Assembly: GCA_022560615.1 (NCBI GenBank)
Contig: JADFSR010000024.1
Span: 1-59,697, forward strand
DNA from: Gemmatimonadota bacterium
Lineage (GTDB): Bacteria > Gemmatimonadota > Gemmatimonadetes > Longimicrobiales > Gaopeijiaceae
Reading direction: 5' to 3'
Length of the DNA stretch: 59,697 bases
Below the pieces are notes generated by a model that was not told where the DNA came from, searched no databases, and worked only from the letters and a program-made list of their open reading frames with translations. The translations under genes were made by a program, and so were the position numbers. Positions 21,731-38,049 of the stretch are shown here, one piece after another. Numbering within the stretch: the first letter of the stretch is position 1; each line of letters begins with the position of its first letter.

Positions 21731-23363
21731 ATGAACCTCCCAACTGTGGACGGAACGCGTGCGCGCGTCGCCGTTTGGAGCCAGCTCGAAGACCGGCAGC
21801 CCGCATACGGCGCTGGTCTCGAACGTAGATCTCGTCGTGATCCGCTTTGACCACCGGGTCGCGGTGTTGTATGGGCGTTGTCATCACCGGGGCGCTCTGC
21901 TCGCGGACGGCTATATCGATGGGCAGAACCTCATCTGCGGTGTCCACGGCTGGGACTATCGGTACGACACGGGTGCCAGCGAATACAACAACGACGAGGC
22001 ATTGCACCGCTTTGCCGCCGTGATCGACCAAGAGGCGGACGCGGTGTGGGTGGCCGAGGTCGCTGAGTTCGCGGAGGCACACCCGCAGCCCTACCGCCGC
22101 GACGAATATCTCGGCTTGTATCAGGACGTGCACGGGGGCCCGGAGGAACCGCACAACAACTATATCCAGGGCCTCGCGCGAGACGGGCTGTCAAAGGTCG
22201 GTCACCACGGCGTGGTCTCGGCGATGGGGGTCCCGCTCACCGAGCTGCCGCGCTGGGACGACCTGCAGCTCCTCACCGCACAGTTGGCCCGACGCCCCGC
22301 GATGGACGACCAGCCAGTAGGCACCGAGCTCGTGATCGGCCCAAACGCCTTGAAGCCTCTTCGCCTCGATGTCCCGATCTTCGTGAGCGACATGAGCTTC
22401 GGAGCTCTCTCCGAGGAAGCAAAGGTCGCGTTGGCAACAGGAGCGGAGCTAGCCGGAACCGGGATCTGCTCAGGCGAGGGAGGCATGCTGGAGGAAGAGC
22501 GCGAAGCGAATAGCCGCTACCTGTACGAGCTAGCGTCAGCAAAGTTCGGTTGGAGCCTCGACAAGGTCGCGAAGTGCCAGGCGTTCCACTTCAAAGGCGG
22601 GCAAGGCGCGAAGACCGGTACCGGTGGTCACCTGCCCGGTGCGAAAGTGGTGGGCAAGATCGCGGAAGTACGTGGGCTCGAGGTCGGTCGGGCCGCGATC
22701 AGCCCGCCCGCCTTCCCCGACCTAGTGACGGTCCACGACTTCCGAGCGGTCGCCGAAGAAGTGCGCGAGGTCAGCGGTGGCATCCCCATCGGCTTCAAGT
22801 TGAGCGCGCAGCATATCGAGGACGACATCGACTTCGCGCTCGAGGTCGGGTGCGACTACATCATTCTCGACGGGCGAGGCGGCGCAACAGACGCTGCCCC
22901 CGAGATCTTCAAGAACAACATTTCGGTCCCGACACTCGCGGCGCTGCCCCGCGCTCGGCGTCACCTCGACGCGTGCGGCGTCGACGGTGTGACCCTCATC
23001 ATCACCGGAGGGCTGCGCACGGAGTCGGACTTCGTGAAAGCGCTTGCGCTCGGGGCAGACGGCGTCGCGATCGCGAACTCGGCCCTGCAAGCCATCGGGT
23101 GTCTCGGAATGCGCGCGTGCCACACCAACAACTGTCCGGTCGGAATCGCGACGCAGCAAAAAGGGCTTAGGGCCCGGCTCATCGTGGACAAGTCCGCCCG
23201 GCGACTCGCCAACTTCCTCGAAGCCTCGATCGAACTCATGCAGGTGCTCGCGCGCGCCTGCGGTCACTCCCATCTTCGGGACTTCAGCCCAACCGATCTC
23301 ACGACGTGGAAGCGAGACATCGCGGACCTGACCGGCGTGAGGTACGCGGGCATGGGTACGTGA
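21731..23363 (+). CDS. Rieske ferredoxin-GltB (glutamate synthase) flavoprotein fusion, apparent +1 frameshift
   Basis: The N-terminus has the Rieske 2Fe-2S pairs CHHRGAL (Cys-x-His) and CGVHGW (Cys-x2-His). The rest is a GltB-type FMN barrel with SDMSFGALSEEA, KTGTGGHLPG, LDGRGGATDAAP and the 3Fe-4S cysteines in MRACHTNNCPVGIAT. It should transfer electrons from the Rieske centre to FMN and may make glutamate or a related product. The uninterrupted frame starts only at a GTG (21759) that would drop the normal N-terminus. ATG 21731, with AGGAAG upstream, opens another frame (RVAVWSQLEDRQPAY). Removing one G at 21809-21810 joins it to ALVSNVDLVVIRFD, giving a normal Rieske start. Sequencing error or mutation are both possible. 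Confidence 0.8.
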
Positions 23364-23389: not shown

Positions 23390-24211
23390 ATGATGACGAT
23401 ACGTCACTCGGCAGCTCTGCTCGCGCTCATGATCGCCGCAGCTCCCGTGGCGGGGCAGTCCCTGCCGCCGGACGAGGAGGGCGCGCGCGCGCGCCTGGAC
23501 GCTTCGCCGCGGCACGGCGAGTGGATCGACTATGACGCTGGCGGAGGCGATATGGTACGGGCGTGGGTCACGTACCCCGAGCGCAGCGACGCCGCGCCGG
23601 TCGTCGTCGTGATCCACGAGATATACGGCCTCACGGACTGGATCCGCTCGGTCGCGGACCAGCTCTCGGCGGATGGCTTCATCGCGATCGCGCCGGACCT
23701 TCTCACAGGTACCGGACCTGGTGGTGGCGGCTCGGAGTCGATGGACCGCCAAGAGAGCGTGGCCGCCGTGCGCTCGCTCGACGTCACGGACGTGAACCGC
23801 CGCCTGCACGGTGCCGCGTCTTACGCGACGAGCCTCCCAGCGGCGAGCGACGCTGTCGGGGTGGTCGGGTACTGCTGGGGAGGCGGCCGAAGCTTCGGCT
23901 TCGCGATCGACTTCGCCGATCTCGACGCCGCCGTCGTATACTACGGCAGCTCCCCAGACGACGGATATGAAACGATTGGGGCGCCGGTGCTCGGATTGTA
24001 CGGCGGGAACGACAACCGGGTGAATTCCACGATCCCCAGGGCGGAAGAAGCGATGCGCGCGCTCGGAAAGTCGTTCGAGTCACGCATTTTCGACGGAGCG
24101 GGGCACGGTTTCCTGCGCAACCAGCCCGGGCAAGAGGGGGCCAACCAACGCGCGACCGAACGCGCCTGGCCGCTGACGATCGAGTTCTTCCGGGAGCACC
24201 TCGGCTCGTGA
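23390..24211 (+). CDS. Secreted dienelactone hydrolase-family protein
   Basis: 273 residues from the ATG at 23390 after GGAGGG; an earlier ATG overlapping the previous stop lacks a ribosome site. It has a signal peptide (SAALLALMIAAAPVAGQ). The alpha/beta-hydrolase triad typical of dienelactone hydrolases is visible: nucleophile Cys in GVVGYCWGGG, Asp in LYGGNDNRV and His in GAGHGFLRN, with the conserved VIHEIYGLTDWI. The family cleaves dienelactones or other cyclic esters, but secreted members have broader, mostly unknown substrates. It is 26 nt after the Rieske-GltB gene and overlaps the nucleotidyltransferase gene (GTGA). Confidence 0.88.
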   Translation: MMTIRHSAALLALMIAAAPVAGQSLPPDEEGARARLDASPRHGEWIDYDAGGGDMVRAWVTYPERSDAAPVVVVIHEIYGLTDWIRSVADQLSADGFIAIAPDLLTGTGPGGGGSESMDRQESVAAVRSLDVTDVNRRLHGAASYATSLPAASDAVGVVGYCWGGGRSFGFAIDFADLDAAVVYYGSSPDDGYETIGAPVLGLYGGNDNRVNSTIPRAEEAMRALGKSFESRIFDGAGHGFLRNQPGQEGANQRATERAWPLTIEFFREHLGS

Positions 24212-25131
24212 CCCTACCGCTGGTCGTGCTCGCCGGCGGCCTGTCCACGCGCTACGGGCGTTTGAAGCAGCTTGACCCTTTGGGCCCCAACGGTGAAACG
24301 ATCATGGACTACAACGTCTTCGACGCCGTCCGTGCCGGATTCGCCCGAATGATCTTCGTCGTGCGGCCGGAGATCGAGGAAGCAGTCCGCGACCATGTGT
24401 CCAAGGTCGTGGGCGGCAATGTCCCCTTGGACTTCGTCCACCAGGACCTCGACGAGCTGCCCGAGGGGTTCCGGGCACCTCCCGATCGCATACGGCCGTG
24501 GGGTACGGGCCACGCCGTGTTGTGCGCGTCGAAGCTCATCGACAGACCCTTCGCGGTGTGCAACTCCGACGACCTCTATGGCCCCGGCGCGTTCTCGATG
24601 ATGTACCAGCATCTGTCCCAGGATCCGGTGCCCACAGAGGCGGCGTTGGTAGGGTACACGCTCGATCACACCCTGTCGGGACATGCTGGCGTCGCTCGGG
24701 GGGTCTGCGTCCTGAGTCGGGACGGGCTGCTATCGCGCATCTCCGAGGTACGTGAGATCCGCCGCATCGATGGCTGGATCACTGGCATGTACACCGATGG
24801 CAGCACGCTCGAGCTTTCCGGCGACGAGATCGTGTCCATGAATTTGTGGGGCTTCACCGCGCCCGTGATCGATCACATGCGGAGACAGTTCACTCGCTTC
24901 CTCGGTCGCTGGGGCGCGGACACGGACCGCGAGTTCTTCCTTTCGACCGCGGTGAACAACCAGATCCAGATCGGCGCGTCACAGGTCTACGTTTTGCACG
25001 CCCCGGATTCATGGTTCGGCGTGACGCATGCTGAGGATCGTAGCCGTGCGCTGGAGACTTTGCGCCAACGCGTCGACGAGGGCGCGTATCCGGCTAGCCT
25101 AGCCCAGGGCTTTTCCGCGATGGGCGATTAG
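24208..25131 (+). CDS. Sugar-phosphate nucleotidyltransferase-like protein
   Basis: 307 residues from a GTG that overlaps the hydrolase stop (GTGA). The NTP_transferase signature is VVLAGGLSTRYGRLKQLD, followed by RPWGTGHAVLCA and NSDDLYG, whose Asp should coordinate Mg2+ with the nucleotide. There is no left-handed beta-helix extension, so it is a single-domain pyrophosphorylase-type enzyme; the sugar phosphate is not identifiable. The sodium:solute symporter follows after 19 nt, and a galactokinase lies in the opposite operon nearby, consistent with import and activation of a sugar. Confidence 0.85.
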   Translation: MTLPLVVLAGGLSTRYGRLKQLDPLGPNGETIMDYNVFDAVRAGFARMIFVVRPEIEEAVRDHVSKVVGGNVPLDFVHQDLDELPEGFRAPPDRIRPWGTGHAVLCASKLIDRPFAVCNSDDLYGPGAFSMMYQHLSQDPVPTEAALVGYTLDHTLSGHAGVARGVCVLSRDGLLSRISEVREIRRIDGWITGMYTDGSTLELSGDEIVSMNLWGFTAPVIDHMRRQFTRFLGRWGADTDREFFLSTAVNNQIQIGASQVYVLHAPDSWFGVTHAEDRSRALETLRQRVDEGAYPASLAQGFSAMGD

Positions 25132-25150
25132 CCGCCGATCACCCTTCTAG

Positions 25151-26920
25151 ATGCAGCTCACCTCACTGGATTGGTCCGTCATCGCGGCCTACGGCGTCAT
25201 CGCGCTGACCGTAGGCCTCTACTTCGCGCGCCGAGCCGGGAGCCAGACCGACCAGTTCTTTCTGGGTGGCCGCTCAATGCCGTGGTGGCTGCTGGGTACG
25301 TCGATGGTGGCGACGACCTTCTCCACGGACACGCCCAACCTCGTCACCGACCTGGTTCGTACCGGAGGCGTCAGCCAGAACTGGCTCTGGTGGGCATTCC
25401 TGATCACAGGGATGTGCACCGTCTTTTTCTACGCTCAGCTCTGGCGCCGCTCCGGAGTCCTGACCGATATCGGCTTCTACGAGCTCCGTTACTCGGGCCG
25501 ACCGGCCGCGTTCTTGAGAGGATTCCGGGCCATCTACCTCGGCGTCTTCTTCAACGTGATGATCATGGCGACCGTGACGCTCGCCGCGATCAAGATCGGC
25601 GGCGTGGTGCTCGGGGCGTCGAAGTACGAGGTCGTGCTGGTCGCGTGCACTGTGACCGCCTTGTACTCGGCGACGTCTGGCTTCTGGGGCGTCGTCGTGA
25701 CCGATCTTCTGCTCTTCGCCATAGCGATGATCGGCTCGTTCGCCGCGGCGTACTACGCGGTCATCCAACCAGACGTGGGAGGACTCTCCGGTCTGTTCGC
25801 GAACCCGGCGCTCGAGGGCAAACTCGGACTGCTCCCCGATTTCACCGACATGAGGACCGCTACCGCCGTTTTCATCGTGCCGATCGCCGTCCAGTGGTGG
25901 AGCACCTGGTATCCCGGCGCAGAGCCCGGAGGCGGTGGCTACGTCGCCCAGCGCATGCTCGCAGCGAAGGACGAGTCCCACGCGCTCAAAGCGGCCCTTT
26001 GGTTCAACATCGCGCACTACGCGCTGCGACCGTGGCCGTGGATCGTGGTCGCGCTCGCATCGCTCATCATGTATCCGACGCTCGAGTCGATCCAAGCGGC
26101 GTTTCCGCTGGTCGATCCGTCGATCGTCCGCCACGACCTCGCGTACCCTGCGATGCTCGTCTTCTTGCCATCCGGGCTGCTCGGTTTGGTCGTGGCCTCG
26201 TTGGCGGCGGCGTACATGTCGACGATCAGCACGCACCTCAACTGGGGGGCGTCGTACATCGTCGACGACTGCTACCGGAGATTCGTCGCCCCCGCCAAGG
26301 ACGAGCGGCACTACGTGCAAGTCGGGCGTGCCGCGACGGTGGGGCTGATCGTGCTCGCGGGCATCGTATCGCTGTGGCTCGAGAACGCGCTCCAGGCGTT
26401 CCAGATCCTGCTACAGATCGGAGCGGGAACTGGGCTGGTTTTCCTGCTGCGCTGGTTCTGGTGGCGCATCAACGTGTGGAGCGAGCTGTCGGCGATGGTG
26501 CTCTCGTTCCTCGTCGCGATCTACTTCCAGTTCGGACACGAAGCGCTCGGATTCGAGCCTGTGGACCCATCGCTTCAACTCGTGCTCGGCGTGCTCGTCA
26601 CTTCGGTGGGCTGGGTGACCGTGACGTTTCTCACCCCTCCGGCACAGCCGGACACTCTGCGGACTTTCCACGAGCTGATCAAGCCGATGGGCCCGGGTTG
26701 GCGAGGAGCTGGCCTCGGACTGGAGCCGGACCGCGACGCCCAGGGCCCGAGTGCGGCCTTCCTCGCCTGGTTCCTGGCGTGCGTCGTGGTGTACGGCGCA
26801 CTGTGTGGGACGGGGTACGCGCTGTACGGCCAGGTAGGTCTATCGACCGTCTGCTTCGGTGCCGCTGCCGCCGCGGCCGTGGGGCTTTTCAAGACACTCC
26901 CGCGTGTGGGTGTGCGCTGA
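25151..26920 (+). CDS. Sodium:solute symporter (SSS family)
   Basis: 589 residues with about 13-14 membrane helices. The family start is typical: WSVIAAYGVIALTVGLY, then FFLGGRSMPWWLLGTSM and TFSTDTPNLVTDLV, where the Na+ and substrate sites are expected. The family imports sugars, proline, pantothenate and others with Na+. The position after a sugar nucleotidyltransferase argues for a sugar or sugar derivative. It ends 6 nt before the stop of the convergent NorB-like gene, with no room for a terminator. Confidence 0.92.
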   Translation: MQLTSLDWSVIAAYGVIALTVGLYFARRAGSQTDQFFLGGRSMPWWLLGTSMVATTFSTDTPNLVTDLVRTGGVSQNWLWWAFLITGMCTVFFYAQLWRRSGVLTDIGFYELRYSGRPAAFLRGFRAIYLGVFFNVMIMATVTLAAIKIGGVVLGASKYEVVLVACTVTALYSATSGFWGVVVTDLLLFAIAMIGSFAAAYYAVIQPDVGGLSGLFANPALEGKLGLLPDFTDMRTATAVFIVPIAVQWWSTWYPGAEPGGGGYVAQRMLAAKDESHALKAALWFNIAHYALRPWPWIVVALASLIMYPTLESIQAAFPLVDPSIVRHDLAYPAMLVFLPSGLLGLVVASLAAAYMSTISTHLNWGASYIVDDCYRRFVAPAKDERHYVQVGRAATVGLIVLAGIVSLWLENALQAFQILLQIGAGTGLVFLLRWFWWRINVWSELSAMVLSFLVAIYFQFGHEALGFEPVDPSLQLVLGVLVTSVGWVTVTFLTPPAQPDTLRTFHELIKPMGPGWRGAGLGLEPDRDAQGPSAAFLAWFLACVVVYGALCGTGYALYGQVGLSTVCFGAAAAAAVGLFKTLPRVGVR

Positions 26921-26926
26921 TCGCGG

Positions 26927-28351
26927 CTACACCCGCTCGGGGGCGACCCACCAGTAACGAAACGCGATCGGGATAAGTCGGGCTAACAAGAGCACGAAGA
27001 ATACCAGCGCGACAGCTCCGGTCGCCGCGAACAGCACGCCGTTCCACGCCGCCAGCCATGTGGGCGGCACGTATGTCTCACCTGGTGAAAAGCCGGCGCG
27101 ACTCACTCCGGTGATCACGCCGGAAACGTGGAGCCACACTACGAGCGCAGCGACACCCAGGTTGAGTCCCACAACGATCCGCTTCACGCCCCGCGTGTGC
27201 AGCACGCTGGCGGCAAGCTCACCCTCTCGCGCCTGCAGGTGTTCACCGAGGATCCAGATGATCGCCCCGAGCAGGATCATGGTGTCGATCCCGATCGTGG
27301 CGCCCATCGCGTGCCCAGTCACGACGTAGGTGCCGTGGATGATCGCATTGAGCGGCGGAATCGAGATCAATACCGCCGACAACAGGATGAAGACCGTCCA
27401 GTACTTCGATGCGGCGAAGCTGCCTCGCGCGGCGCAGAAAGCCTGCTCGTCAGTCACGTTCACGAGCTTCCACAACTCGTATACGGCGCGGCACAGGATC
27501 GTGATCTCCAACATGCTCACCACGAAGGAGATCCACTTGACGATGTGATCCTGCGGCAGATGGTACGAGTGGTGTGCGAAGTTCGTGAACGCATTCAGCA
27601 GCCCTACGGCGAAGAGTGCATACGCGAGCCTGGAATGACCGTACCGGGGGTCTCGGCTGATGCGCTCGCCGATGTAGATGACCGCGCCGTAGACGAAGAG
27701 GTTGAAGCTCCCGACCAGGGTGCCGGTCGCCTTCCACTGCACCTGGAGATCCTGCACCGGGTTCCTGAAGAAGCTCGGTAGTAGATAGAGGTGCTGCTCC
27801 ACGAACGTGACGATGAAGAGGAGCATGCCGACGCCCCACATCGTCAGGTAGAGCGGCCTTTCGAAGAAGTCAGGGCCCGCCACCCGGAAGAAGTTCCATA
27901 CGTAGCAGATCCACCCGAGCAGGATGAACACGCTGAAGACCGGGTGGAAGCCCACGTACTCGCGACCCGACCCGATCCCCATCGCCAGCGTAACCAGGAT
28001 CCCCGTACCCGCGATCGCCCACGACCCGACCTGGATGCGTAGTCTCCAGCGATCACCAGCCGTCGCCACTCCCCCGTGATCCTGAAGCCAGCGATGCACC
28101 ACGGCCACGCCCCCGAGAAAGATCCACGCAGACGCGAACGCCGTGTGAATGGGCCGAAGCTGACGGAGATCGAGCCCGATCGATTGGAACGAAGGAGCGA
28201 GCGCGGGCACCGAATACAAGGCGCCCAGAATGCCACCCAACAGGGTGATACTCATCGCGATCAGGCCGCCGCGGATGAACATGACCGTCGCGAACTGCCG
28301 AACAGGATCGGCCTCGTTGAACGGTAGCCAGAAGCCCCCGGCTGCCCTCAC
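26927..28351 (-). CDS. Divergent NorB-like heme-copper oxidase subunit I
   Basis: 474 residues from a GTG at 28351 that overlaps the cytochrome gene stop (GTGA). It has about 12 membrane helices. The low-spin heme His is in RPIHTAFASAW (H69), and the HH pair of helix VII is in NFAHHSYH (260-261). In helix X the pair normally HxH reads TGHAMG (H347, M349), so the second ligand would be Met. The helix VI His next to a Trp, normal in cbb3 and NOR enzymes, reads W-K-A-T-G-T. The protein therefore has an incomplete or altered active site. With the diheme cytochrome upstream it resembles NorCB, but neither oxygen nor NO reduction can be assumed. Confidence 0.8.
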   Translation of the reverse strand: MRAAGGFWLPFNEADPVRQFATVMFIRGGLIAMSITLLGGILGALYSVPALAPSFQSIGLDLRQLRPIHTAFASAWIFLGGVAVVHRWLQDHGGVATAGDRWRLRIQVGSWAIAGTGILVTLAMGIGSGREYVGFHPVFSVFILLGWICYVWNFFRVAGPDFFERPLYLTMWGVGMLLFIVTFVEQHLYLLPSFFRNPVQDLQVQWKATGTLVGSFNLFVYGAVIYIGERISRDPRYGHSRLAYALFAVGLLNAFTNFAHHSYHLPQDHIVKWISFVVSMLEITILCRAVYELWKLVNVTDEQAFCAARGSFAASKYWTVFILLSAVLISIPPLNAIIHGTYVVTGHAMGATIGIDTMILLGAIIWILGEHLQAREGELAASVLHTRGVKRIVVGLNLGVAALVVWLHVSGVITGVSRAGFSPGETYVPPTWLAAWNGVLFAATGAVALVFFVLLLARLIPIAFRYWWVAPERV

Positions 28352-29115
28352 CGGTACTCCCACCACGGAAGTCGCGACCAGTCGACCGTTGCAAGCGACT
28401 GCCGACGTTCGGTCTCCGACCGGAGCGCGTCGCGATCGCTGTTGAGCCAACGAAAATACTCGATCACTTGCTGCCGCTGGGTCTCCGAGAAGGCCGGAAC
28501 CGGCGGGGGCATGCCCTTCTCAGGGCGCCCGCTCGTCAGCACCTCGTGTAGCGCTGCCTCATCGAGGCCGTCGACGACCGTGGAAAGGTCCGGCGCGCCA
28601 ACGATCGATACTTGGAAGGGGAAGTGACACGCGCTACATGCACCGGAGCGGAACGCCTCGAACCCGGCCGCCACGCCGGGCGGCGATGAGGCGTCGACGA
28701 CTGCCGCCTCGAATGCGGCCTGCGGACTCGTCCCCTCGTTGGGGTTCCCGAGTCGGAGCTCACCACGCCCGATCTCGGCACGATCGAGCTCTTGCAGGAA
28801 TGCTCGCATCGCAGCGATCTGTGCCTGGTCGAAGTGCAACGCCGGCATCTGACCACTACCCACAGTCAGAAGCGAAGCGAGCCGCGTCTCATCGACGCGG
28901 CTCGCGGAATTCGTGAGGTCTGGGCCGAGGAATCCCCCCTGGCCCCAGAGTTGGTGGCAGACTTGACACGCCTTCTCATGAAAGAGTCGACGCCCTTCGA
29001 TCGCTTTCTCGGACAGCTGGAGGTCCACGTCGTCCGAATACACCAAGCCCGTCTGGACGGCGAAACACGCCACCAGCACGCCGAGCATGATTTTCTTGGA
29101 CGAGGGACCGAGCAC
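28348..29115 (-). CDS. Membrane-anchored diheme cytochrome c (NorC-like anchor)
   Basis: 255 residues. An N-terminal hydrophobic helix (KIMLGVLVACFAVQTGLVY) anchors it with the heme domains outside. There are two heme c sites, CQVCH (about 50) and CSACH (about 158), each with a later Met for axial ligation (GQMPAL and GMPPP). The order anchor-then-heme resembles NorC, with a second cytochrome domain added. The GTG at 29115 is used; an ATG 9 codons later is possible and neither has a clear ribosome site. It probably feeds electrons to the coupled NorB-like protein. Confidence 0.88.
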   Translation of the reverse strand: MLGPSSKKIMLGVLVACFAVQTGLVYSDDVDLQLSEKAIEGRRLFHEKACQVCHQLWGQGGFLGPDLTNSASRVDETRLASLLTVGSGQMPALHFDQAQIAAMRAFLQELDRAEIGRGELRLGNPNEGTSPQAAFEAAVVDASSPPGVAAGFEAFRSGACSACHFPFQVSIVGAPDLSTVVDGLDEAALHEVLTSGRPEKGMPPPVPAFSETQRQQVIEYFRWLNSDRDALRSETERRQSLATVDWSRLPWWEYR

Positions 29116-29196
29116 AGAACCGGAGTTGCGAGCGGGAATGGGCCAGAGGGCTGAAGAAAGGGGACGGGGCCTACCGTCGTCAAGCTCCCGCGGACA

Positions 29197-30417
29197 CTAC
29201 AGAATGCCTACCGAAGCTCCTGCCGACGGCACCGCGACGAAGAGACGATCGTCGATGCGATCGCCCATCCCACGGGGCTCGAAGTACTGCTCGACGAGCG
29301 CCTCGAGAACGGCATCCACCGTACCCCGATCAGCTAGCGCGACGATGCAGCCACCGAAGCCGGCACCCGTGAGCCGAGCCCCCGCGCAACCTCCCTCCCG
29401 CGCGATGGCCACCAGTTCGTCGAGCTCCCGAGAGCTCACCTGGTAGTCGGTGCGCAGGCTGCCATGGGAAGCGTCCATCAGCGTGCCGAACCCGGCAAGG
29501 TCCGCGTTCAACAGGCAGTCGGCTGCCTGGTCGACCCGACCGGCCTCGGACACGACATGGCGGAAGCGTCTCAGTAGGCGCCCTTGAAGCGCGTCTTTCG
29601 CCATGCTGATCGCTTCAGCAGCTCCGATAAGCCGGAGCAGGTCCGGATAGCCGCGAGGCGTAGTGGGAAGCCGATCACGCTCCAAGGCGAATTGTACCAC
29701 GGCATCGAGGGCCTTTTCGCACTCGGAGCGTCGCTGGTTGTACGCAGCCTGCGCTCGACCCGATTTCTCAACTCGGACTCCCGTGTCTGCGACTACGAAG
29801 CACCAGTCTTCGGGCACCGCGAGGTGACGCATTCCGAGAGGGTTGAATGTGATGCGAGCCGCGTGGCCGGCCCGAGCCCCGAATCCGATGGCATGATCCA
29901 TGCCTCCGCCGCGCGTGCCCGTGTACTGCTCGGCCTCGGCCATGAGCTCAGCAAATTCCGCGGGGGCGAGGGAGACTTCGTTCGCATGCGCGAGCGCGAG
30001 GCCAACCGCGTTCACCAGCGCTGTCGAGGATGATAGCCCCGCGGCGACCGGAACGTCCGAGGAAAGGACTCCCTCGACGCCTCGCCAGATTGCGAAGCGT
30101 CGAGCCATCTCGTTCGCCGGTGCCTGCACGTAATTGCGCCAGTCACCCGACGAGCCGGGAGCGATCGCGGGACTGATCTCGAACTCGACCGGCTCGAACT
30201 CCGGGTTCGCGTTCGTGATTCGGACCGTGCCGTCTTGCCGCGGCCGGAATACGAGCCGGGCCTCGTGTCGCATCGCCATCGGTAACACAGCGAGTCCGCA
30301 ATAGTCGATGTGCTCCCCGATGAGATTCACGCGGCCGGGCGCACGCGCGACATGGGTCGGGGGGCCGCCGAAGAGCGACGAGAACAGCTCTGAGGGCGTC
30401 GGTCGGTCCTTCGTCAC
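29197..30417 (-). CDS. galK: Galactokinase (GHMP kinase family)
   Basis: 406 residues from a GTG at 30417 that overlaps the GH109-like gene stop (GTGA). GHMP motif 1 is the galactokinase signature GRVNLIGEHIDYCG, motif 2 is VAAGLSSSTALVN (phosphate-binding) and motif 3 is LTGAGFGGCIVAL. It should phosphorylate galactose, or an N-acetylated galactose given its neighbour, at C1 in the cytoplasm. The 81 nt between its stop and the cytochrome start have no clear terminator, so readthrough is possible. Confidence 0.9.
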   Translation of the reverse strand: MTKDRPTPSELFSSLFGGPPTHVARAPGRVNLIGEHIDYCGLAVLPMAMRHEARLVFRPRQDGTVRITNANPEFEPVEFEISPAIAPGSSGDWRNYVQAPANEMARRFAIWRGVEGVLSSDVPVAAGLSSSTALVNAVGLALAHANEVSLAPAEFAELMAEAEQYTGTRGGGMDHAIGFGARAGHAARITFNPLGMRHLAVPEDWCFVVADTGVRVEKSGRAQAAYNQRRSECEKALDAVVQFALERDRLPTTPRGYPDLLRLIGAAEAISMAKDALQGRLLRRFRHVVSEAGRVDQAADCLLNADLAGFGTLMDASHGSLRTDYQVSSRELDELVAIAREGGCAGARLTGAGFGGCIVALADRGTVDAVLEALVEQYFEPRGMGDRIDDRLFVAVPSAGASVGIL

Positions 30418-31808
30418 GCCCTCAGGATCTCGAGCTTCGGCCACTGCGCCCACCGTCCGCGAGTGAAGTCGGGCACGTCGATGGGCCGGCTGCGGTTGGC
30501 AACCGACCATTCAGTGAGAGGTGTGATCACCGATATGGCCGCGGCGTCGTACACGTTCATGTCGGTCGGCTTGCCCTCCCGCAAGCACTTCACCAATCGG
30601 TAGTCCTCGATGAAGTCCATGCCTCCGTGGCCGGCACCCTCCGACAGCGCCTCGAGGTCCTTCCAGAGTGGATGGTCGAACTCTTCTCTCAGCTCCATCC
30701 AGTCCTGCCAGCGGTGCTCCGGGCTCATGCCCTCGACGTACACGCGATGCGGATAGCCCTGAAAAAGCCCCTTCGTGCCCTGGACCATGTGGATGCGCGA
30801 GTAGGGACGCGGCAGATTCGTATCGTGGCCCAGGTAGATCGTCCGGCCCCGGACAGTCTTGATCATCGTCGTGTTCACGTCCCCGAGCATGTAGCGTTCC
30901 TGCCGCTTCGCGTGGCCCTCCGGATAGTGTGCCTCCGCCCACTCCTGTAGCCCACGTGATGGTGAGCTCATCGACACCAAATAGTCGAAGCGGTCACCAC
31001 GGTTGATATCCATGACGTTCGCCACCGGGCCCAGTCCGTGGGTCGGGTACAGGTTTCCATCGCGGACCATCGCGTGCGCGCGGCGCCAGAGCCCCTCGCC
31101 CGTCTCGGAGAACTTGATCGAGCGGAGGTCGTGCAAGTAGCCACACTCCGCGTGGAGGATCTCGCCGAAAAGTCCGAGTCGGGCCATGTGGAAGACCATC
31201 ATCTCGGGGCGGTCGTAGTTGCAGTTCTCCATCATCAGGCAGTGCTTCTGATACTTCTCGGCGTACTCGACCATCTTCCAGCAGTCGTCGGTACGGTACG
31301 CGGCCGGCACCTCGGTCGCCGCGTGTTTGCCGTTCTCCATGGCGGCCACGCACACCGGAACATGCCACTCCCATGGTGTGGCGGTGAACACGAGGTCGAG
31401 ATCCTCTGTCTCGCACATGCGGACGAAGTCGGTCTCGTTCCGGCCATACAGGGTCGGCCGCGGGCGACCAGCCTCGGTAACCCACGACGCGACCTCAACG
31501 TTGCGGTCTTCGTCGATGTCGCACAGCGCGACGATCTCCACGCCCTCGAGGCCGAGGAAGATGCGCACGTGCGTACCCCCCATGCCGCCGACCCCCACGA
31601 AGCCGACCCGCACGACGTCCATCGGCGGTGCGGCGAAGGGGGCGGCGGGCGCAGGACCGAGGTCCGGCCGTTCCTGAATCGGTGAGGGACCGCCGGCCGC
31701 GAGGCCCGGCATCGTTCCCGTGGCGCTCAGGCCGAGGCCCGCTACGCCGAGCTTGAGAAGGTCGCGCCGCGGAAGGGAGCTGGAATCGGCGGGACGGCGG
31801 TTGCTCAT
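30414..31808 (-). CDS. Tat-exported GH109-like alpha-N-acetylgalactosaminidase (Gfo/Idh/MocA fold)
   Basis: 464 residues from the ATG at 31808, which overlaps the preceding amidohydrolase stop (ATGA); an ATG further upstream lies inside that gene. The twin-arginine signal is LPRRDLLKLGVAGLG (RR at 14-15). The Rossmann motif is GVGGMGG (72-78) for NAD. ENCNYDRPEMMV (Tyr198) and LYPTHGLGPV (His257) match residues implicated in catalysis in GH109 glycosidases, which use an internal NAD redox step. RRAH, GDRFDYLVSMSS and WQDWMEL fit too. A general oxidoreductase is the alternative. Next to galK it suggests release and use of galactose-type sugars. Confidence 0.85.
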   Translation of the reverse strand: MSNRRPADSSSLPRRDLLKLGVAGLGLSATGTMPGLAAGGPSPIQERPDLGPAPAAPFAAPPMDVVRVGFVGVGGMGGTHVRIFLGLEGVEIVALCDIDEDRNVEVASWVTEAGRPRPTLYGRNETDFVRMCETEDLDLVFTATPWEWHVPVCVAAMENGKHAATEVPAAYRTDDCWKMVEYAEKYQKHCLMMENCNYDRPEMMVFHMARLGLFGEILHAECGYLHDLRSIKFSETGEGLWRRAHAMVRDGNLYPTHGLGPVANVMDINRGDRFDYLVSMSSPSRGLQEWAEAHYPEGHAKRQERYMLGDVNTTMIKTVRGRTIYLGHDTNLPRPYSRIHMVQGTKGLFQGYPHRVYVEGMSPEHRWQDWMELREEFDHPLWKDLEALSEGAGHGGMDFIEDYRLVKCLREGKPTDMNVYDAAAISVITPLTEWSVANRSRPIDVPDFTRGRWAQWPKLEILRA

Positions 31809-32791
31809 GATCGTGCTAGCCCCAAGATGCGAGCCGCGTTCCCCCCCCGGATCTTGTTCTTGTCTTCCTCCGAAAGGTCGAGACCAGAGATGCCGTCGAC
31901 CATCTTGTCGAGGCTCCCGATCATGTGCGGGTAGTCCGAGCCTGCGACGATGTGATCCACGCCGGCGAAGTCGATGGCCAGGTCGAGGCACCGCGTGTCG
32001 AAGTTCACCGTGTCATAGTAGAAGTTCTTGAGCAGCTCACTCGGCGGCGTCGAGCAGTGCTCGCGGCACTCGGGATAGGCCTCGAAGCCGCGATCGAAGC
32101 GCTCCGCCAAATACGGCACCGCGCCGCCGAGGTGCGCGAGCACCCACGTGATACCCGGGAAGCGCTCGACCACCCCGGAATAGACGAGCCCGGCCGCGGC
32201 GAGCGTGGTGTCGGTCAGGAAGCCGACCATCGGCATCAGCATGAACTTCTCCATGACCTCGACGCCGACGGGGTACGTCGGGTGGATGTAGATCACGGCA
32301 CGCGCCTCGTTGAGCCGCTCGTAAACGGGCCAGAAGCGCTGCTCGAAGAGCGGTACGCCGCTCGCGTTCGAGAGGAGCATCACGCCTGGAAGGTCGAGCT
32401 CGCCGAGGACTCGCTCCGCTTCTCGCGCCGCCGCTTCGGGAGCGTTCATGGGTAGTGTCGCGAGCGCGGTAAACCGCTCGGAGCGCGCCCGCGCCTCTGA
32501 AGCCAGGGCGTCGTTGATGATCCGGCACAATTGCACCGCTCGCTCGGGTGTTTCGATGCTCGTCCCTGGCGCCGTGAACGTGATGACCTGCATCCGCACG
32601 CCGGCCTCGTCGAGCACCTTTTCACGGAAGTCGAGGTCGCGGTGCCCGGGTACCAGCACGTTGTAGTCACCAGGCGAATGGAGCACCGGGTTCCCGTCAT
32701 CGTCGGTGGTGACCCGGAAATGACTGCCCCCGGACCGAATCGCCTCCAGGTACTCGGGCGGGAAGTAGTGGTTGTGAAAATCGACAATCAT
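31805..32791 (-). CDS. Amidohydrolase-2/ACMSD-type metal-dependent hydrolase or decarboxylase
   Basis: 328 residues. The His-x-His at the start is VDFHNHYFPPEY, a further His is in IYIHPTYP, another in LAHLGGAVPYLAERF, and the Asp in VAGSDYPHM. This is the ligand set of aminocarboxymuconate-semialdehyde decarboxylase-like proteins, which decarboxylate or hydrate aromatic or carboxylic ring-cleavage products. It has no signal peptide and is cytoplasmic. It overlaps the GH109-like gene and follows the permease after 14 nt, which suggests the same substrate or pathway. Confidence 0.87.
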   Translation of the reverse strand: MIVDFHNHYFPPEYLEAIRSGGSHFRVTTDDDGNPVLHSPGDYNVLVPGHRDLDFREKVLDEAGVRMQVITFTAPGTSIETPERAVQLCRIINDALASEARARSERFTALATLPMNAPEAAAREAERVLGELDLPGVMLLSNASGVPLFEQRFWPVYERLNEARAVIYIHPTYPVGVEVMEKFMLMPMVGFLTDTTLAAAGLVYSGVVERFPGITWVLAHLGGAVPYLAERFDRGFEAYPECREHCSTPPSELLKNFYYDTVNFDTRCLDLAIDFAGVDHIVAGSDYPHMIGSLDKMVDGISGLDLSEEDKNKIRGGNAARILGLARS

Positions 32792-32805
32792 GTGTTGGTT
32801 CCCTT

Positions 32806-34146
32806 CTACGCGGCCGCCGGCTTACGAGCCCACATGAAGTAGACGGGCAGCCCCACGAGCACCAGCCCAAGGCCGGTAAGGCTTTCGACCGGCTGCGACG
32901 CCACCTGATTCGCGACGATCGCGAACGCCGACATCGCGAAGATCCCCGGCACCCACGGGTAGCCCCAGACCTCGTAGGCACGTGGAACGTCCCCACGGCG
33001 GCGCAGCAGGATGAGCCCGATCGCCATGAGCGCGAAGAAGATCCACTCGGTGTAGATCACCCGTGTGAAGAGCGCCCGGTAGGAACCGGTGAGCACCAGC
33101 ACGCTCGACCACAAGGCCTGGAGCGCGATCGCGCGGTGAGGAGTTCGGTGCGTCTTGTGGACCTCCCCTAGCCAGCGGAAGAGTAGGCCGTCTCGCGCCA
33201 TCGCGAAGTAGACCCTCGGTCCCGCCAGCACGATGCCGGAAAGAGCGCCGAAGCTGGAGAAAACCACCAACATTGACATCGCCACACCGCCCCCGCGGCC
33301 GAAGACCGCGTCGGCGGCATCCGCAGCGACCCGATCGGACGAGGCGACCGTCGCCATCGGCAATACGTAGAGGTACACCGCGTTGAGGAGGACATAACAT
33401 GCTGTGACGACGAGCGTTCCGATCATCAGAGCTCGTGGAATCGTGGTTCGCGGATCCTTGGTCTCTTCGGCGTTGTAGGTGACCATATGCCACCCACCGA
33501 ACGCGAATAGGCCCGCCACGAGCGCGCGCCCGAACTCTCCGACGCCGAAGGACCCCGGCTCTGTCGGCGCGGGGCTGCTCACTGCCACCGTGTGCGCGTC
33601 CCCCCCGAACGCGAAGCCGAGAACGACGATCGCACCGATCGCGACGAGCTTCCCGGCAGTGATCACCGTCTGCAGTACGCTGCCGTGCTTCACGCCCACA
33701 TAGTTGACTATGCTCAGGATCACGATGGCGGCGATGGCGACGGACTTCTGACCGAGGTCGTTCAACTCGACGAGGAAGCCGAGGTAACGAGCGCACACCA
33801 CCGCGATCGCCGCGATGATGCCGGAGTGCATCGTCCAGAACATCGCCCAGCCCCACAGGAATCCGAGCGCCGGGGAGAAAGCCTCCCGCAAGTACACGTA
33901 TACGCCACCCGCCTCGGGGTAGCTGCTCGCGAGCTCCGCACATACCAGGGCTCCGAACATTGTGAGCACGCCTGCGACGAGCCACACCGCGAAGATGCCG
34001 AGCGTCGTGGGGACCTGCCCGGTTACTTCAGATGGCTGAACGAAGATCGACGCGCCGATGATGGTGCCGACCACCATCGCGGTCGCTTGGCTGAGTCCTA
34101 TCGCGCGGCGGAGACCTCCGACGCCGTCCTCCGAGGTCCGGCTCAA
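32806..34146 (-). CDS. APC-family amino acid permease
   Basis: 446 residues assuming a TTG start at 34146 that overlaps the upstream stop (TTGA); this fits the coupling style here but is not certain. It has about 12 membrane helices beginning AIGLSQATAMVVGTIIGASIF, the diagnostic APC first-helix motif with the unwound GxG, and PEAGGVYVYLREAF in helix 3. The family imports amino acids or exchanges them with amines. It sits between a plug-only receptor-like protein and the ACMSD-type enzyme. The substrate is unknown. Confidence 0.88.
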   Translation of the reverse strand: MSRTSEDGVGGLRRAIGLSQATAMVVGTIIGASIFVQPSEVTGQVPTTLGIFAVWLVAGVLTMFGALVCAELASSYPEAGGVYVYLREAFSPALGFLWGWAMFWTMHSGIIAAIAVVCARYLGFLVELNDLGQKSVAIAAIVILSIVNYVGVKHGSVLQTVITAGKLVAIGAIVVLGFAFGGDAHTVAVSSPAPTEPGSFGVGEFGRALVAGLFAFGGWHMVTYNAEETKDPRTTIPRALMIGTLVVTACYVLLNAVYLYVLPMATVASSDRVAADAADAVFGRGGGVAMSMLVVFSSFGALSGIVLAGPRVYFAMARDGLLFRWLGEVHKTHRTPHRAIALQALWSSVLVLTGSYRALFTRVIYTEWIFFALMAIGLILLRRRGDVPRAYEVWGYPWVPGIFAMSAFAIVANQVASQPVESLTGLGLVLVGLPVYFMWARKPAAA

Positions 34147-35237
34147 CGCCCCCTGCGAGTCCAGACCACGATCGCTCCACATCCAGTCTGGAGGTTGTTG
34201 CTGTAGTTGAACTCCGCCGGGATGGATGCCGTCCCCTTGTAGAATTCGACCGCTTCGATGTCGAACGTAATGATATCGTTCAGGCCGAGATCGGGGTCGA
34301 GTCTATAGAGTCTGCCGTCCATGAAGACCATTGGCGTGCAGGGACGACCCCTGATGACCAGGCTGCGGCCGGCGTCCGTCAGCCGCACGCCCGCAAGCCC
34401 CTCGAGCAACTGCGGTAGCCGAGTCGCCCCGCTCCGCTCGATGTCCGTGCGCAGCAGGAACGTCCCGAAACCCATGTTCATGCGCCGGACGAGCCCTTCC
34501 ATATCGTTGTAGAACTTCCGAGGCTCGACGGTGACGGTGAGGCCCTCCAACTCCATTGCCTGCTCGGACAGCTCGATCGCGACGTTCTGGGTAAGGCCAC
34601 CGGCGACATGCAGCGGCAGTTCCCGATCGGAATAAGCGAGGTGCCGAACGTCGATCACATACACGCCGTAGGGAACCTCGTCGAGCGTGAACATCCCACG
34701 GTCGTTGGTCAGCGTGCTGATGCCCTCGTCACGGATCGTCAGCTCGGCGTTTGCGATCCCTCGACCGGTTGTGCGGTCGACGACGCGTCCGGTGATGAAC
34801 CCCGGCTGTGATGGGTCGGACACTTCGATGAGGAGGTGTTCGATGAGCAAGGTCCCGGACTCGATGCCGACCGTGCGCGGCTCGGACCCGCGGTCGAGGA
34901 CCTCGGCGTAAAGGTCGACGGCCACCCCCCCGGGAGCGTGACAGAAAAGGAAGAACCCCTCTGCGTTGGTGAGCTCAGCGGCGGTCCCCGGATACTCGCT
35001 GCCTGGGACCTGCCACATGATCACTACCGTCGCCTTGTCGAGCACCACACCGGTCGACGCGTCTCGCACCGTACCGGCGAGCACTCCTTCGCTGCGCTCG
35101 TCGACCTCCCCGCACACCTGCGCGATGGCCAGGCCTACCTCTCCCTCCGACTGCGCGGCGGCGGGAAAGGCGCTGACGCCCACGAGAAGCGCCGCGCACA
35201 GAGTCCTCGCACAGCATCGAAGGTGGAAGCGCGTCAT
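34143..35237 (-). CDS. Plug-only receptor-like protein with two carboxypeptidase-regulatory domains
   Basis: 364 residues with a signal peptide (ALLVGVSAFPAAAQ). Two beta-sandwich repeats are visible (about 50-140: LAGTVRDASTGVVLDKATVV; about 155-230: FITGRVVDRTTGRGIANAE, VPYGVYVIDVRHLAY). Then comes a TonB-plug-like domain with LLEGLAGVRLTDAGRSLVIRG, MVFMDGRLYR, DIITFDIEAVEFYKG and GAIVVWTRRG, after which the protein stops. No barrel follows, so this is a plug without a pore: a periplasmic binding or regulatory module. It is the first large gene of the operon. Confidence 0.82.
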   Translation of the reverse strand: MTRFHLRCCARTLCAALLVGVSAFPAAAQSEGEVGLAIAQVCGEVDERSEGVLAGTVRDASTGVVLDKATVVIMWQVPGSEYPGTAAELTNAEGFFLFCHAPGGVAVDLYAEVLDRGSEPRTVGIESGTLLIEHLLIEVSDPSQPGFITGRVVDRTTGRGIANAELTIRDEGISTLTNDRGMFTLDEVPYGVYVIDVRHLAYSDRELPLHVAGGLTQNVAIELSEQAMELEGLTVTVEPRKFYNDMEGLVRRMNMGFGTFLLRTDIERSGATRLPQLLEGLAGVRLTDAGRSLVIRGRPCTPMVFMDGRLYRLDPDLGLNDIITFDIEAVEFYKGTASIPAEFNYSNNLQTGCGAIVVWTRRGR

Positions 35238-35585: not shown

Positions 35586-37121
35586 CTACGAAGCAGGGGG
35601 CGTCGGTGTTCCCACCCCCACGGCTGCGAGAATGCGACGGCTCTGCTCGGGCACGCCTTCGATCTCCATTTCCAGGCCCGCCCGGCGCACTTGCTCGAGC
35701 ATCTCCGCGAGACTGTACGCCCCGGTCAGATCGATGCGGCCGAGTCCCGAGCAGTTGAGAACGACGCGCGTAACATCGGGTTCGTCGGCCAGTCGCGCGA
35801 ATAGAGCGTCCTCCAGGGCGGGGGCGGACCCGAACCAGAGCACGCCCTTCGGCTCGAGGTGCAACGTGTCTCCGTCGCGCCTCGCAGCCAATCCGGGCCG
35901 CAGCTCCCGCAACATGTGTACGGCGGTGGCCATGACCACTCCGAGCAGGACTGCCTGTTCGATGTGCGGCGCCAGAAGCAGCGTGAAAGCGAACGTGCCC
36001 CACGCGACGAACGCCTGAGGCCGCGAAAATATCCAGACACGGAGTAGCTCGCGTGGGCGGAAGAGAGTCGAGACCGCTGCGATGACGATGCCGGCGAGCA
36101 CCGCAGTTGGGAGGGGAGCGAGTACACCGGCGAAGGGCAGAAAGACGAGCACACCGATGCCGGTGACAAGACCACTCCAGCGGCTACGCGCGCCAGACAG
36201 TCGGTTCAGGCTGCTACGCGAGAAGGAACCACCGACCGGAAAGCCGCCGGCGAGTCCGGCGGCCAGGTTCGCGGCGCCCTGACTGAGGAACTCCCGGTTC
36301 GCGTCCCAACGCTCCCGATCCTCGCTCGCAAAGAGCCGTGAGATGGAGGCCGCCTCGGCGAAGCCCACCAGCGCGATGACAGCCCCGGGTACCAGCAGCA
36401 CGGGGAGCCGACTCCACGGTAGCTCCAGCGTGAACATGGGCATGCCGGCGGAGATGTCGCCGACCGTCGAGCCTGCGTATCCGGCAACGATCGAGAAGAC
36501 GAACCCGCCTGTGACCGCGAGCAGACCACCGGGAACGCGGGGTTGAACCACTCGAGCCCCGAGCACCAGTACTACCGTGACCGCGGTGAGACCGATCGAC
36601 GCCGCCTCCCAGGACCCAGGATGCCCGAGCGCCCAAACCGCCCGACCCAGGACGCTTCCTTCCGGAGCGGCCGACCCGAGCGCTCCCGGTAGCTGCGCCG
36701 AAACGATCAGAATCGCCGCGGCCGACGTGAAGCCGCTCAGCATCGGTCGGGACATCAGGTAGCTGAGCCAACCCGCCTTCAAGAGGCCGACCAGAATGCG
36801 GACGACCCCCACCACCAAGGCGAGCAGCGCGGCGAGTCCCACGAACTCGGCGCTGCCCGCTTCAGCGAGTGGGAGAAGAGCCCCGAGCGTGAGCAGCGCG
36901 GTGAGAGCGACGGGACCCGTCTGCAGGTACGGAGACGACGCGAAGAACGCTGCCGCGATCGGCGCCAACGCGGCTGCGTACAAGCCGCGATGGCTCGGCA
37001 TTCCTGCGAGTTCAGCGTATGCTATCGACTGCGGGATGAGCACCAGGGCAACCCCCAGCCCGGCGAACACGTCCCTCGAGGAAAAGCGATGCCCGGGTTC
37101 CGAACGGAGTTGCGTCTTCAT
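35586..37121 (-). CDS. SulP-family anion transporter with STAS domain
   Basis: 511 residues. About 11-14 membrane helices start with LGVALVLIPQSIAYAELAGM, the SulP signature region, with GLYAAALAPI next. The STAS domain at about 400-505 has VLNCSGLGRIDLTGAYSL, where the Asp-Leu-Thr turn replaces the DSSG seen in anti-sigma antagonists. These proteins move sulfate, bicarbonate or other anions. The gene overlaps the TorD gene (ATGA) and ends the molybdoenzyme cluster, so sulfate or sulfite transport linked to that enzyme is a reasonable guess. Confidence 0.9.
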   Translation of the reverse strand: MKTQLRSEPGHRFSSRDVFAGLGVALVLIPQSIAYAELAGMPSHRGLYAAALAPIAAAFFASSPYLQTGPVALTALLTLGALLPLAEAGSAEFVGLAALLALVVGVVRILVGLLKAGWLSYLMSRPMLSGFTSAAAILIVSAQLPGALGSAAPEGSVLGRAVWALGHPGSWEAASIGLTAVTVVLVLGARVVQPRVPGGLLAVTGGFVFSIVAGYAGSTVGDISAGMPMFTLELPWSRLPVLLVPGAVIALVGFAEAASISRLFASEDRERWDANREFLSQGAANLAAGLAGGFPVGGSFSRSSLNRLSGARSRWSGLVTGIGVLVFLPFAGVLAPLPTAVLAGIVIAAVSTLFRPRELLRVWIFSRPQAFVAWGTFAFTLLLAPHIEQAVLLGVVMATAVHMLRELRPGLAARRDGDTLHLEPKGVLWFGSAPALEDALFARLADEPDVTRVVLNCSGLGRIDLTGAYSLAEMLEQVRRAGLEMEIEGVPEQSRRILAAVGVGTPTPPAS

Positions 37122-38041
37122 GATCCGACGTCGGCGGTCGTTTCGACCCGTTCGCAGTCGAGCGGATCGAAGCCCTCGGCCGCCAATTGCTGCAGGAGCT
37201 CCGAAGTTCGCCGAGCGCGCTTCGCCAGGAAGTCACTCGTAGCGCCCCAAAGATCGGTGCGGCCCGCATGCATTTGGCCCTGACGTCGTGCCTCAGCCGC
37301 GAGCGCCAGCAGAACACCCGCCGGCTCCTGGCTGAGAAGGCTCGCCAGAGCGTACCGTCGTTCCCCCGCGCGAAGCCCGAGATCGAGCACCCCCGCGATC
37401 GACGCCAGGTCGGCGCGCGTGAGTATCGTCCCGGTTCGCACCGTCGCGAGTAGCCCGCCCAAGAACGCGTCACCCCCCTCCTCTCGGGGGTCGGGCAGCC
37501 CCGGAGCCTCGCGCAGATGGAGCGGGAGGTACTCGGGGTGTCCCGCGCGTCCGGCTTCGGCCGCGAAGAGCTGCGACAGCAGCTCGGCCCACGACGAGTA
37601 GAAGCCGGACGCCAGCTCCTGAACCCGCGCGAGGTAATGGGGAAGCCAGGGACCGATGTGCTCGTGCAGCAGCGCTGCCCTGCTCTGCTCCAGCAGAGCA
37701 TCTTGCGCGCCTTCAAGTCCCTCCTCCTCGGAGAGAGAAGCGTAGAGAGCCAACAACGCGCACAGGTGATCGGGCTCCGCGGGCGGCGTGCGACCCAGCG
37801 CGCTCCAGAATCCAGCCACCCGCTGGCGCGCGTCACCCCCCATCATTCCCTCGGCCCCGACATGCACCGAGGCGTAGGGGTAGAGCTGAAACAGGAACAC
37901 GTCGCCGTACTCCGAGACCGTGGGCGCCTCCGCAATGCCCAGCGCGTTCGCCACCGTGGCGTGCGTGGGGCCCGGAGACTCCGCGAGCACGGTGAGCGCC
38001 CTCAAGAGCTCGACGGGCGTCGAAGACGGAATCTCGTTCAC
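37118..38041 (-). CDS. TorD/DmsD-family molybdoenzyme maturation chaperone
   Basis: 307 residues from a GTG at 38041, 8 nt after the large-subunit stop. It is an all-helical protein with the family core HLCALLALYASLSEEEG, HEHIGPWLPHYLARV and SGFYSSWAELLSQLF, where the H-x-G-P-W-L motif is typical. TorD-type chaperones bind the apo large subunit and help insert the molybdopterin cofactor; some also hold Tat signals. The C-terminal extension of about 100 residues beyond the usual ~200 contains KRARRTSELLQQLA and may be a second helical unit. Co-encoded with its client just upstream. Confidence 0.8.
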   Translation of the reverse strand: MNEIPSSTPVELLRALTVLAESPGPTHATVANALGIAEAPTVSEYGDVFLFQLYPYASVHVGAEGMMGGDARQRVAGFWSALGRTPPAEPDHLCALLALYASLSEEEGLEGAQDALLEQSRAALLHEHIGPWLPHYLARVQELASGFYSSWAELLSQLFAAEAGRAGHPEYLPLHLREAPGLPDPREEGGDAFLGGLLATVRTGTILTRADLASIAGVLDLGLRAGERRYALASLLSQEPAGVLLALAAEARRQGQMHAGRTDLWGATSDFLAKRARRTSELLQQLAAEGFDPLDCERVETTADVGS

Positions 38042-38049
38042 GCCGGGCT

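Follow-up and report, generated by a model that had tools for sequence, protein, structure and literature searches.

A NorCB-like gene pair of Gemmatimonadota with Met at the low-spin heme ligand position and no ligand residue in helix VI

Background

Six histidines are the accepted signature of heme-copper oxidases and nitric oxide (NO) reductases (PMC3413370). In NO dismutase (NOD), an unusual qNOR, one FeB histidine is replaced by Asn and the glutamate by Gln, and the other five histidines are kept (PMC3413370). All six histidines are expected of eNOR, sNOR, gNOR, CuANOR, bNOR and nNOR, with Q, N or D at the Glu site where listed (PMC8756737); the second subunit expected of sNOR, gNOR and eNOR is a cupredoxin. 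In cNOR, a calcium ion connects NorC with Glu135 of NorB and with the propionates of the two b hemes (PMC4816578). Insertion of FeB into cNOR depends on NorQ and NorD, failing which the complex is fully hemylated, FeB-less and inactive; qNOR inserts FeB without NorQD (PMC9976466).

The current work concerns a gene pair in a stretch of 59,697 nucleotides from a Gemmatimonadota bacterium (contig JADFSR010000024.1 of assembly GCA_022560615.1), called the window below; positions without a contig label are those of the window. An earlier note had described one product of the pair as a NorB-like oxidase with HxM in place of the HxH of helix X. No description of such a lineage was found in the searchable papers, a search that most subscription journals lay outside. 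A conserved heme-copper lineage that lacks two of these histidines, one belonging to the electron-transfer heme and the other to the catalytic metal, would put to the test which of the ligands are indispensable to the fold, and its chemistry may turn out to be new. Annotation is concerned too: surveys of nitrogen and oxygen metabolism could miscount HxM genes, which score as COX1, as oxidases or NO reductases.

Results and discussion

The gene pair and its products

Two overlapping ORFs on the minus strand of the window encode a diheme cytochrome c and a NorB/COX1-like protein. The former, a NorC-like membrane-anchored partner of 255 aa (28348..29115, read from 29115 to 28348), has an N-terminal hydrophobic segment and two CxxCH motifs, CQVCH (28954..28968, minus strand) and CSACH (28624..28638, minus strand). 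The latter, a catalytic-type subunit of 507 aa (26927..28450, read from 28450 to 26927), has 12 predicted transmembrane helices and matches PF00115 (COX1) over residues 63-469 with E=1e-18 and 67.9 bits, against a cut-off of 34.8; none of the NCBIfam models matched it. Translation probably begins with the TTG at 28381, since relatives start at or near that position, and the N-terminal 23 residues would then be untranslated. A convergent sodium:solute symporter gene lies downstream and stops 7 bases from the NorB-like gene, so that no further subunit follows.

Searches of the PDB with phmmer and with a 15-sequence profile of near relatives gave no match; PDB matches of the family were obtained only with a broader profile and with a distant member. 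The best Foldseek matches were cbb3 oxidase and cNOR, for an AlphaFold2 model of low confidence (mean pLDDT 55) built from 12 closely related sequences.

Metal-ligand residues

Helix X of the window protein reads HGTYVVTGHAMGATIGID, with GHAM at its core, and the cNOR counterpart reads HGTQLTAAHGHMAF. The motif H380-A381-M382 (27305..27313, minus strand) stands in place of HxH, with H380 at the heme b3 ligand position and M382 at the ligand position of the low-spin heme; its codons can be read directly in the DNA (CAC GCG ATG, 27313..27305). HxM pairs with HxH in four independent comparisons: a MAFFT alignment with cNORs and A-type COX, a phmmer comparison of a distant HxM member with the cNOR 3o0r, an hmmsearch against the qNOR 3ayf, and an hhalign comparison with cNOR. 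The motif is anchored by an upstream HGT, and the alignment to cNOR, qNOR and COX is free of gaps.

In helix VI, the window protein reads VQWKATGTLVGSFN, compared with WWVVHLWVEGVWE, and the FeB ligand positions within the motif QWKATGTLVGSFN (residues 238-250; 27701..27739, minus strand) carry neither His nor Glu. In the register given by cNOR and qNOR, the helix VI histidine corresponds to T242 and the NOR glutamate to V246; the cbb3-based alignment shifts the register by one residue, to G243. Both His and Glu are absent from the ligand positions in either register. The two substitutions claimed in the earlier note were thus borne out by codons and alignments; profile and alignment comparison with cNOR, qNOR and cbb3, which that note had proposed as a check, placed neither a helix VI His nor a helix X HxH in the window protein.

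Other ligand positions are retained. H102 of helix II (28145..28147, minus strand) occupies the second ligand position of the low-spin heme, and the HH pair of helix VII is kept in H293-H294-x-Y-H297 (27560..27574, minus strand), in which H297 is an additional invariant residue just after the helix. At the periplasmic end of helix V lies E218-Q219-H220 (27791..27799, minus strand), of which E218 and H220 are each invariant (38/38 members). E218, H220 and H297 are candidate replacement metal ligands. E164, in a GREY motif (27959..27961, minus strand), aligns with the Ca2+-ligand glutamate of cNOR (E135 in P. aeruginosa; PMC4816578), and H372 (27335..27337, minus strand), together with N368, aligns with the contacts of cNOR to propionate D of heme b3.

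Four of the six superfamily histidines are therefore kept (H102, H293, H294 and H380) and two are replaced, in all 38 members compared. As the earlier note had anticipated, it follows from the alignment that the low-spin heme is predicted to be His/Met-ligated by H102 and M382, and that an FeB ligand is predicted to be lost from helix VI, leaving an active site that would be FeB-less or re-liganded. A His/Met-ligated heme b in a membrane protein has its precedent in cytochrome bd.

The NorC-like partner and electron entry

The partner aligns with NorC across the heme motif, the calcium loop (GQGGFLGPDL versus GEGAYYAPDL in NorC) and the region of the axial Met, and a second heme c domain is added. 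Partners in the family usually carry this second domain, the partner of the most distant member (L058) being a one-heme protein, and nearly all of them end in an LPW-aromatic motif. An intact partner gene is present at nearly all HxM loci. The counterparts of the calcium ligand (E164) and of the heme b3 propionate-D contacts (N368 and H372) are invariant in 38 members; with the NorC-type calcium loop, this makes the electron entry side look like that of cNOR.

Conservation and spread of the HxM family

A profile search of 395 Gemmatimonadota genomes found the HxM family in about 42 of them, distributed over several families of the phylum (the tally is 43 genomes, one of which has a match of only 43 residues with E=2e-4), and a wide score gap separated it from all other COX1 proteins. 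Whether homologues share the HAM motif had been posed as a check, and they do: each of the 38 distinct full-length members has Met at helix X and no ligand His in helix VI, so the HxM state is not due to chance or sequencing error. Invariant in the 38 members are M382, H102, H293, H294, H380, H372, N368 and E315, and also E164, D234, W239, K240, G243, E218, H220 and H297. Some histidine occurs within residues 228-258 in 5 of the 38 members; in the case inspected (L010) it lies in the loop preceding helix VI. Even L058, with 30% identity to the window protein, retains HAM and WKxxG. Comparison of the window gene with a 91% identical relative gave a dN/dS of about 0.15, which indicates purifying selection. 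No relatives of the window protein were found in searches of plasmids or of viral contigs. In two draft genomes (G003:C70 and G408:C86) the HxM gene lies in two adjacent pieces, probably through frameshifts or assembly errors.

Phylogenetic placement

Controls from the same phylum comprised eight cNOR-type, nine cbb3-type and two other COX1 proteins, to which plasmid-borne cNORs and qNORs were added. HxH was present in all controls (cNOR, qNOR, cbb3 and other COX1), and the HxWxE of helix VI in the control qNORs and the cNORs shown in the alignment. In a maximum-likelihood tree of cNOR, cbb3 and A-type sequences, without qNOR, the HxM family was monophyletic (100/99) and adjoined cNOR as a sister branch. 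When qNOR was added, a cNOR+qNOR clade (100/99) excluded the HxM family, which fell between that clade and cbb3; the branches are long. The family thus lay outside the NOR groups with normal ligands that the trees covered, cNOR and qNOR, membership of which would have contradicted the earlier note. Profile comparison gave E=8e-17 with cNOR, 3e-12 with cbb3 and 3e-10 with qNOR. The best reading of these data, from trees that comprised cNOR, qNOR, cbb3 and A-type proteins only, is that the HxM proteins would form a separate lineage within the heme-copper superfamily, one that is homologous to NorCB but belongs to neither cNOR nor qNOR. Two divergent COX1-family proteins with HxH (L114 in G064 and L111 in G348) were also observed outside the cNOR, cbb3 and A-type groups.

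Gene neighbourhood and genome context

In near relatives, the pair follows genes for a GH109-type oxidoreductase and a galactokinase family protein, and faces symporter and nucleotidyltransferase genes. These sugar genes (GH109-type oxidoreductase, galactokinase family, sodium symporter and NTP transferase; 24208-34182 of the window) are kept in near relatives, and may represent an N-acetylgalactosamine pathway. The unusual glycosidase/galactokinase setting pointed out previously is real, but it is limited to near relatives: distant HxM members have other surroundings, without these genes. It was accordingly rejected as a clue to function, and the sugar context is lineage-specific microsynteny. 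The gene context of the HxM loci points to no substrate, and neither a regulator nor a second redox enzyme consistently accompanies them. Elsewhere in the window, a putative respiratory molybdoenzyme cluster (37121-42515, minus strand) encodes a molybdopterin oxidoreductase, a fused 4Fe-4S/NrfD protein and a TorD/NarJ-type chaperone, and an ORF of unusual architecture (21759-23360, plus strand) combines a domain of the glutamate synthase/FMN type with a Rieske [2Fe-2S] domain.

None of the 22 HxM loci examined has norQ beside it (0/22), and no CbbQ_C match was found in the whole window genome; norQ adjoins 6 of the 8 canonical cNOR genes of Gemmatimonadota. Because qNOR is independent of NorQD, the missing norQ is supporting evidence only, and no proof that FeB is absent.

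The window genome has only three COX1-family genes and no cNOR match. It has two NirK genes over the curated cut-off and no NosZ over the cut-off; NirK was counted from such matches only, the weaker ones being probably other multicopper proteins. The NirK-type copper nitrite reductases of this genome, which has no detectable canonical cNOR, are encoded at 91089-92087 of contig C15 and 160254-161123 of contig C1 (both of G000). Among 118 relatives, co-occurrence of HxM with NirK was not significant (6/23 versus 18/95 genomes, p=0.56), nor was that with NosZ, which tended in the negative direction (2/23 versus 25/95 genomes, p=0.10). A role in denitrification is thus not indicated for the HxM family.

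Possible functions of the HxM complex

The reading we prefer, at a probability of roughly 0.55, is that the HxM complex is a distinct cytochrome-c-fed heme b lineage, in which the low-spin heme is ligated by His and Met and the active site is FeB-less or re-liganded, and that it reduces a small oxidant. Periplasmic donors would pass electrons to the c hemes of the NorC-like subunit; the electrons would then cross the conserved calcium-bridge interface to the low-spin heme b (predicted ligands His102 and Met382) and arrive at a heme b3 that is five-coordinate, with His380 as its ligand. Deprived of its helix VI ligand, the distal site would be either metal-free or occupied by a metal on the HH pair and E218, H220 or H297. 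A small oxidant would most likely be reduced at heme b3, by other than the standard cNOR mechanism. The invariance of the HH pair, the heme b3 histidine, N368/H372 and E315 suggests that selection maintains a functional heme b3 pocket, and this speaks against a purely non-catalytic relay. A bolder form of the idea, entertained tentatively, is a new branch of the superfamily with a rebuilt dinuclear centre, in which a metal would sit on the HH pair and E218/H220/H297, electrons would be fed through a His/Met heme b, and the reaction would be unlike that of known members.

It is somewhat doubtful that the complex is still an NO reductase, with a non-heme iron on H293, H294 and one of H220, E218 or H297, that takes electrons from cytochrome c and reduces NO to N2O. 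Such an enzyme would fit the NorC-type partner, the retained HH pair and E315, and the invariant E218, H220 and H297, which the sequence and a weak model put close to the HH motif, where helices end on the periplasmic side; it would also fit a window genome that has two NirK genes, no cNOR match and only three COX1-family genes. However, both the His and the Glu positions of cNOR/qNOR helix VI are lost, norQ is missing, and neither NirK nor NosZ is significantly associated (p=0.56, and p=0.10 in the negative direction). Equally doubtful is a non-catalytic electron-transfer module or gas sensor, whose two b hemes would relay electrons or bind O2, NO or CO without turnover. That the third FeB ligand and the catalytic Glu have gone agrees with this, a His/Met heme is suited to electron transfer, and the second c domain lengthens the electron path; yet a pure relay has no need of the HH pair, E315 and the heme b3 propionate contacts, which are invariant in the 38 members, and a consistently linked regulator or second redox enzyme was not seen. 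Of the proposal in the earlier note, a different reaction or a non-catalytic role, the purely non-catalytic part is accordingly disfavoured. That the gene is a decaying or inactive paralogue might be suspected from the disappearance of two superfamily-defining histidines, but it is very improbable given a dN/dS of about 0.15 against the nearest relative, replacements that are invariant across families of the phylum, and partner genes intact at nearly all loci. Least probable of all is an alignment artefact, with the actual HxH of helix X or His of helix VI lying elsewhere: NOR-based and cbb3-based alignments do disagree by one residue on the register of helix VI, but no member has a conserved helix VI His, and HxM aligns without gaps to cNOR, qNOR and COX.

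Comparison with known systems

The HxM complex shares with cNOR the two-subunit plan of a NorC-type heme c subunit and NorB, with 12 predicted transmembrane helices, as well as the helix II His, the HH pair, the heme b3 His, the HGT motif, the Ca-ligand Glu of GRE, the E280-type Glu and the calcium loop of NorC. It differs in that cNOR has HxH and both the His and the Glu of helix VI, whereas the HxM family has HxM and neither of the other two; moreover, the partner usually has a second heme c domain, norQ/norD are not found nearby, and the family forms a clade separate from cNOR. With qNOR (NorZ) it has in common the NOR-type subunit fold and the motifs of helices X and VII. However, qNOR is a single polypeptide whose fused domain has no heme c, and it possesses all six His and the Glu; the HxM family has a separate NorC gene, is missing ligands of this set and lies outside the cNOR+qNOR clade.

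The cbb3 oxidases (CcoN, C-family oxygen reductases) resemble it in the fold, the KEY/GREY loop and the VQW that opens helix VI, and gave the best Foldseek match. CcoN has the helix VI His and HxH, though, its partners CcoO and CcoP are unlike the NorC-like partner, and distant HxM members score at most 24.7 bits with the ccoN profile, against a cut-off of 583. Compared by described features with eNOR, sNOR, gNOR and CuANOR, the family departs from all four in lacking the full histidine sextet, and from sNOR, gNOR and eNOR also in having a cytochrome c rather than a cupredoxin as second subunit. NOD is the nearest precedent for the altered ligand set of the HxM family. Both are heme-copper relatives in which active-site ligands have been exchanged, but the changes of the HxM family fall at other positions, the His of the low-spin heme becoming Met and the His of helix VI becoming Thr or Gly.
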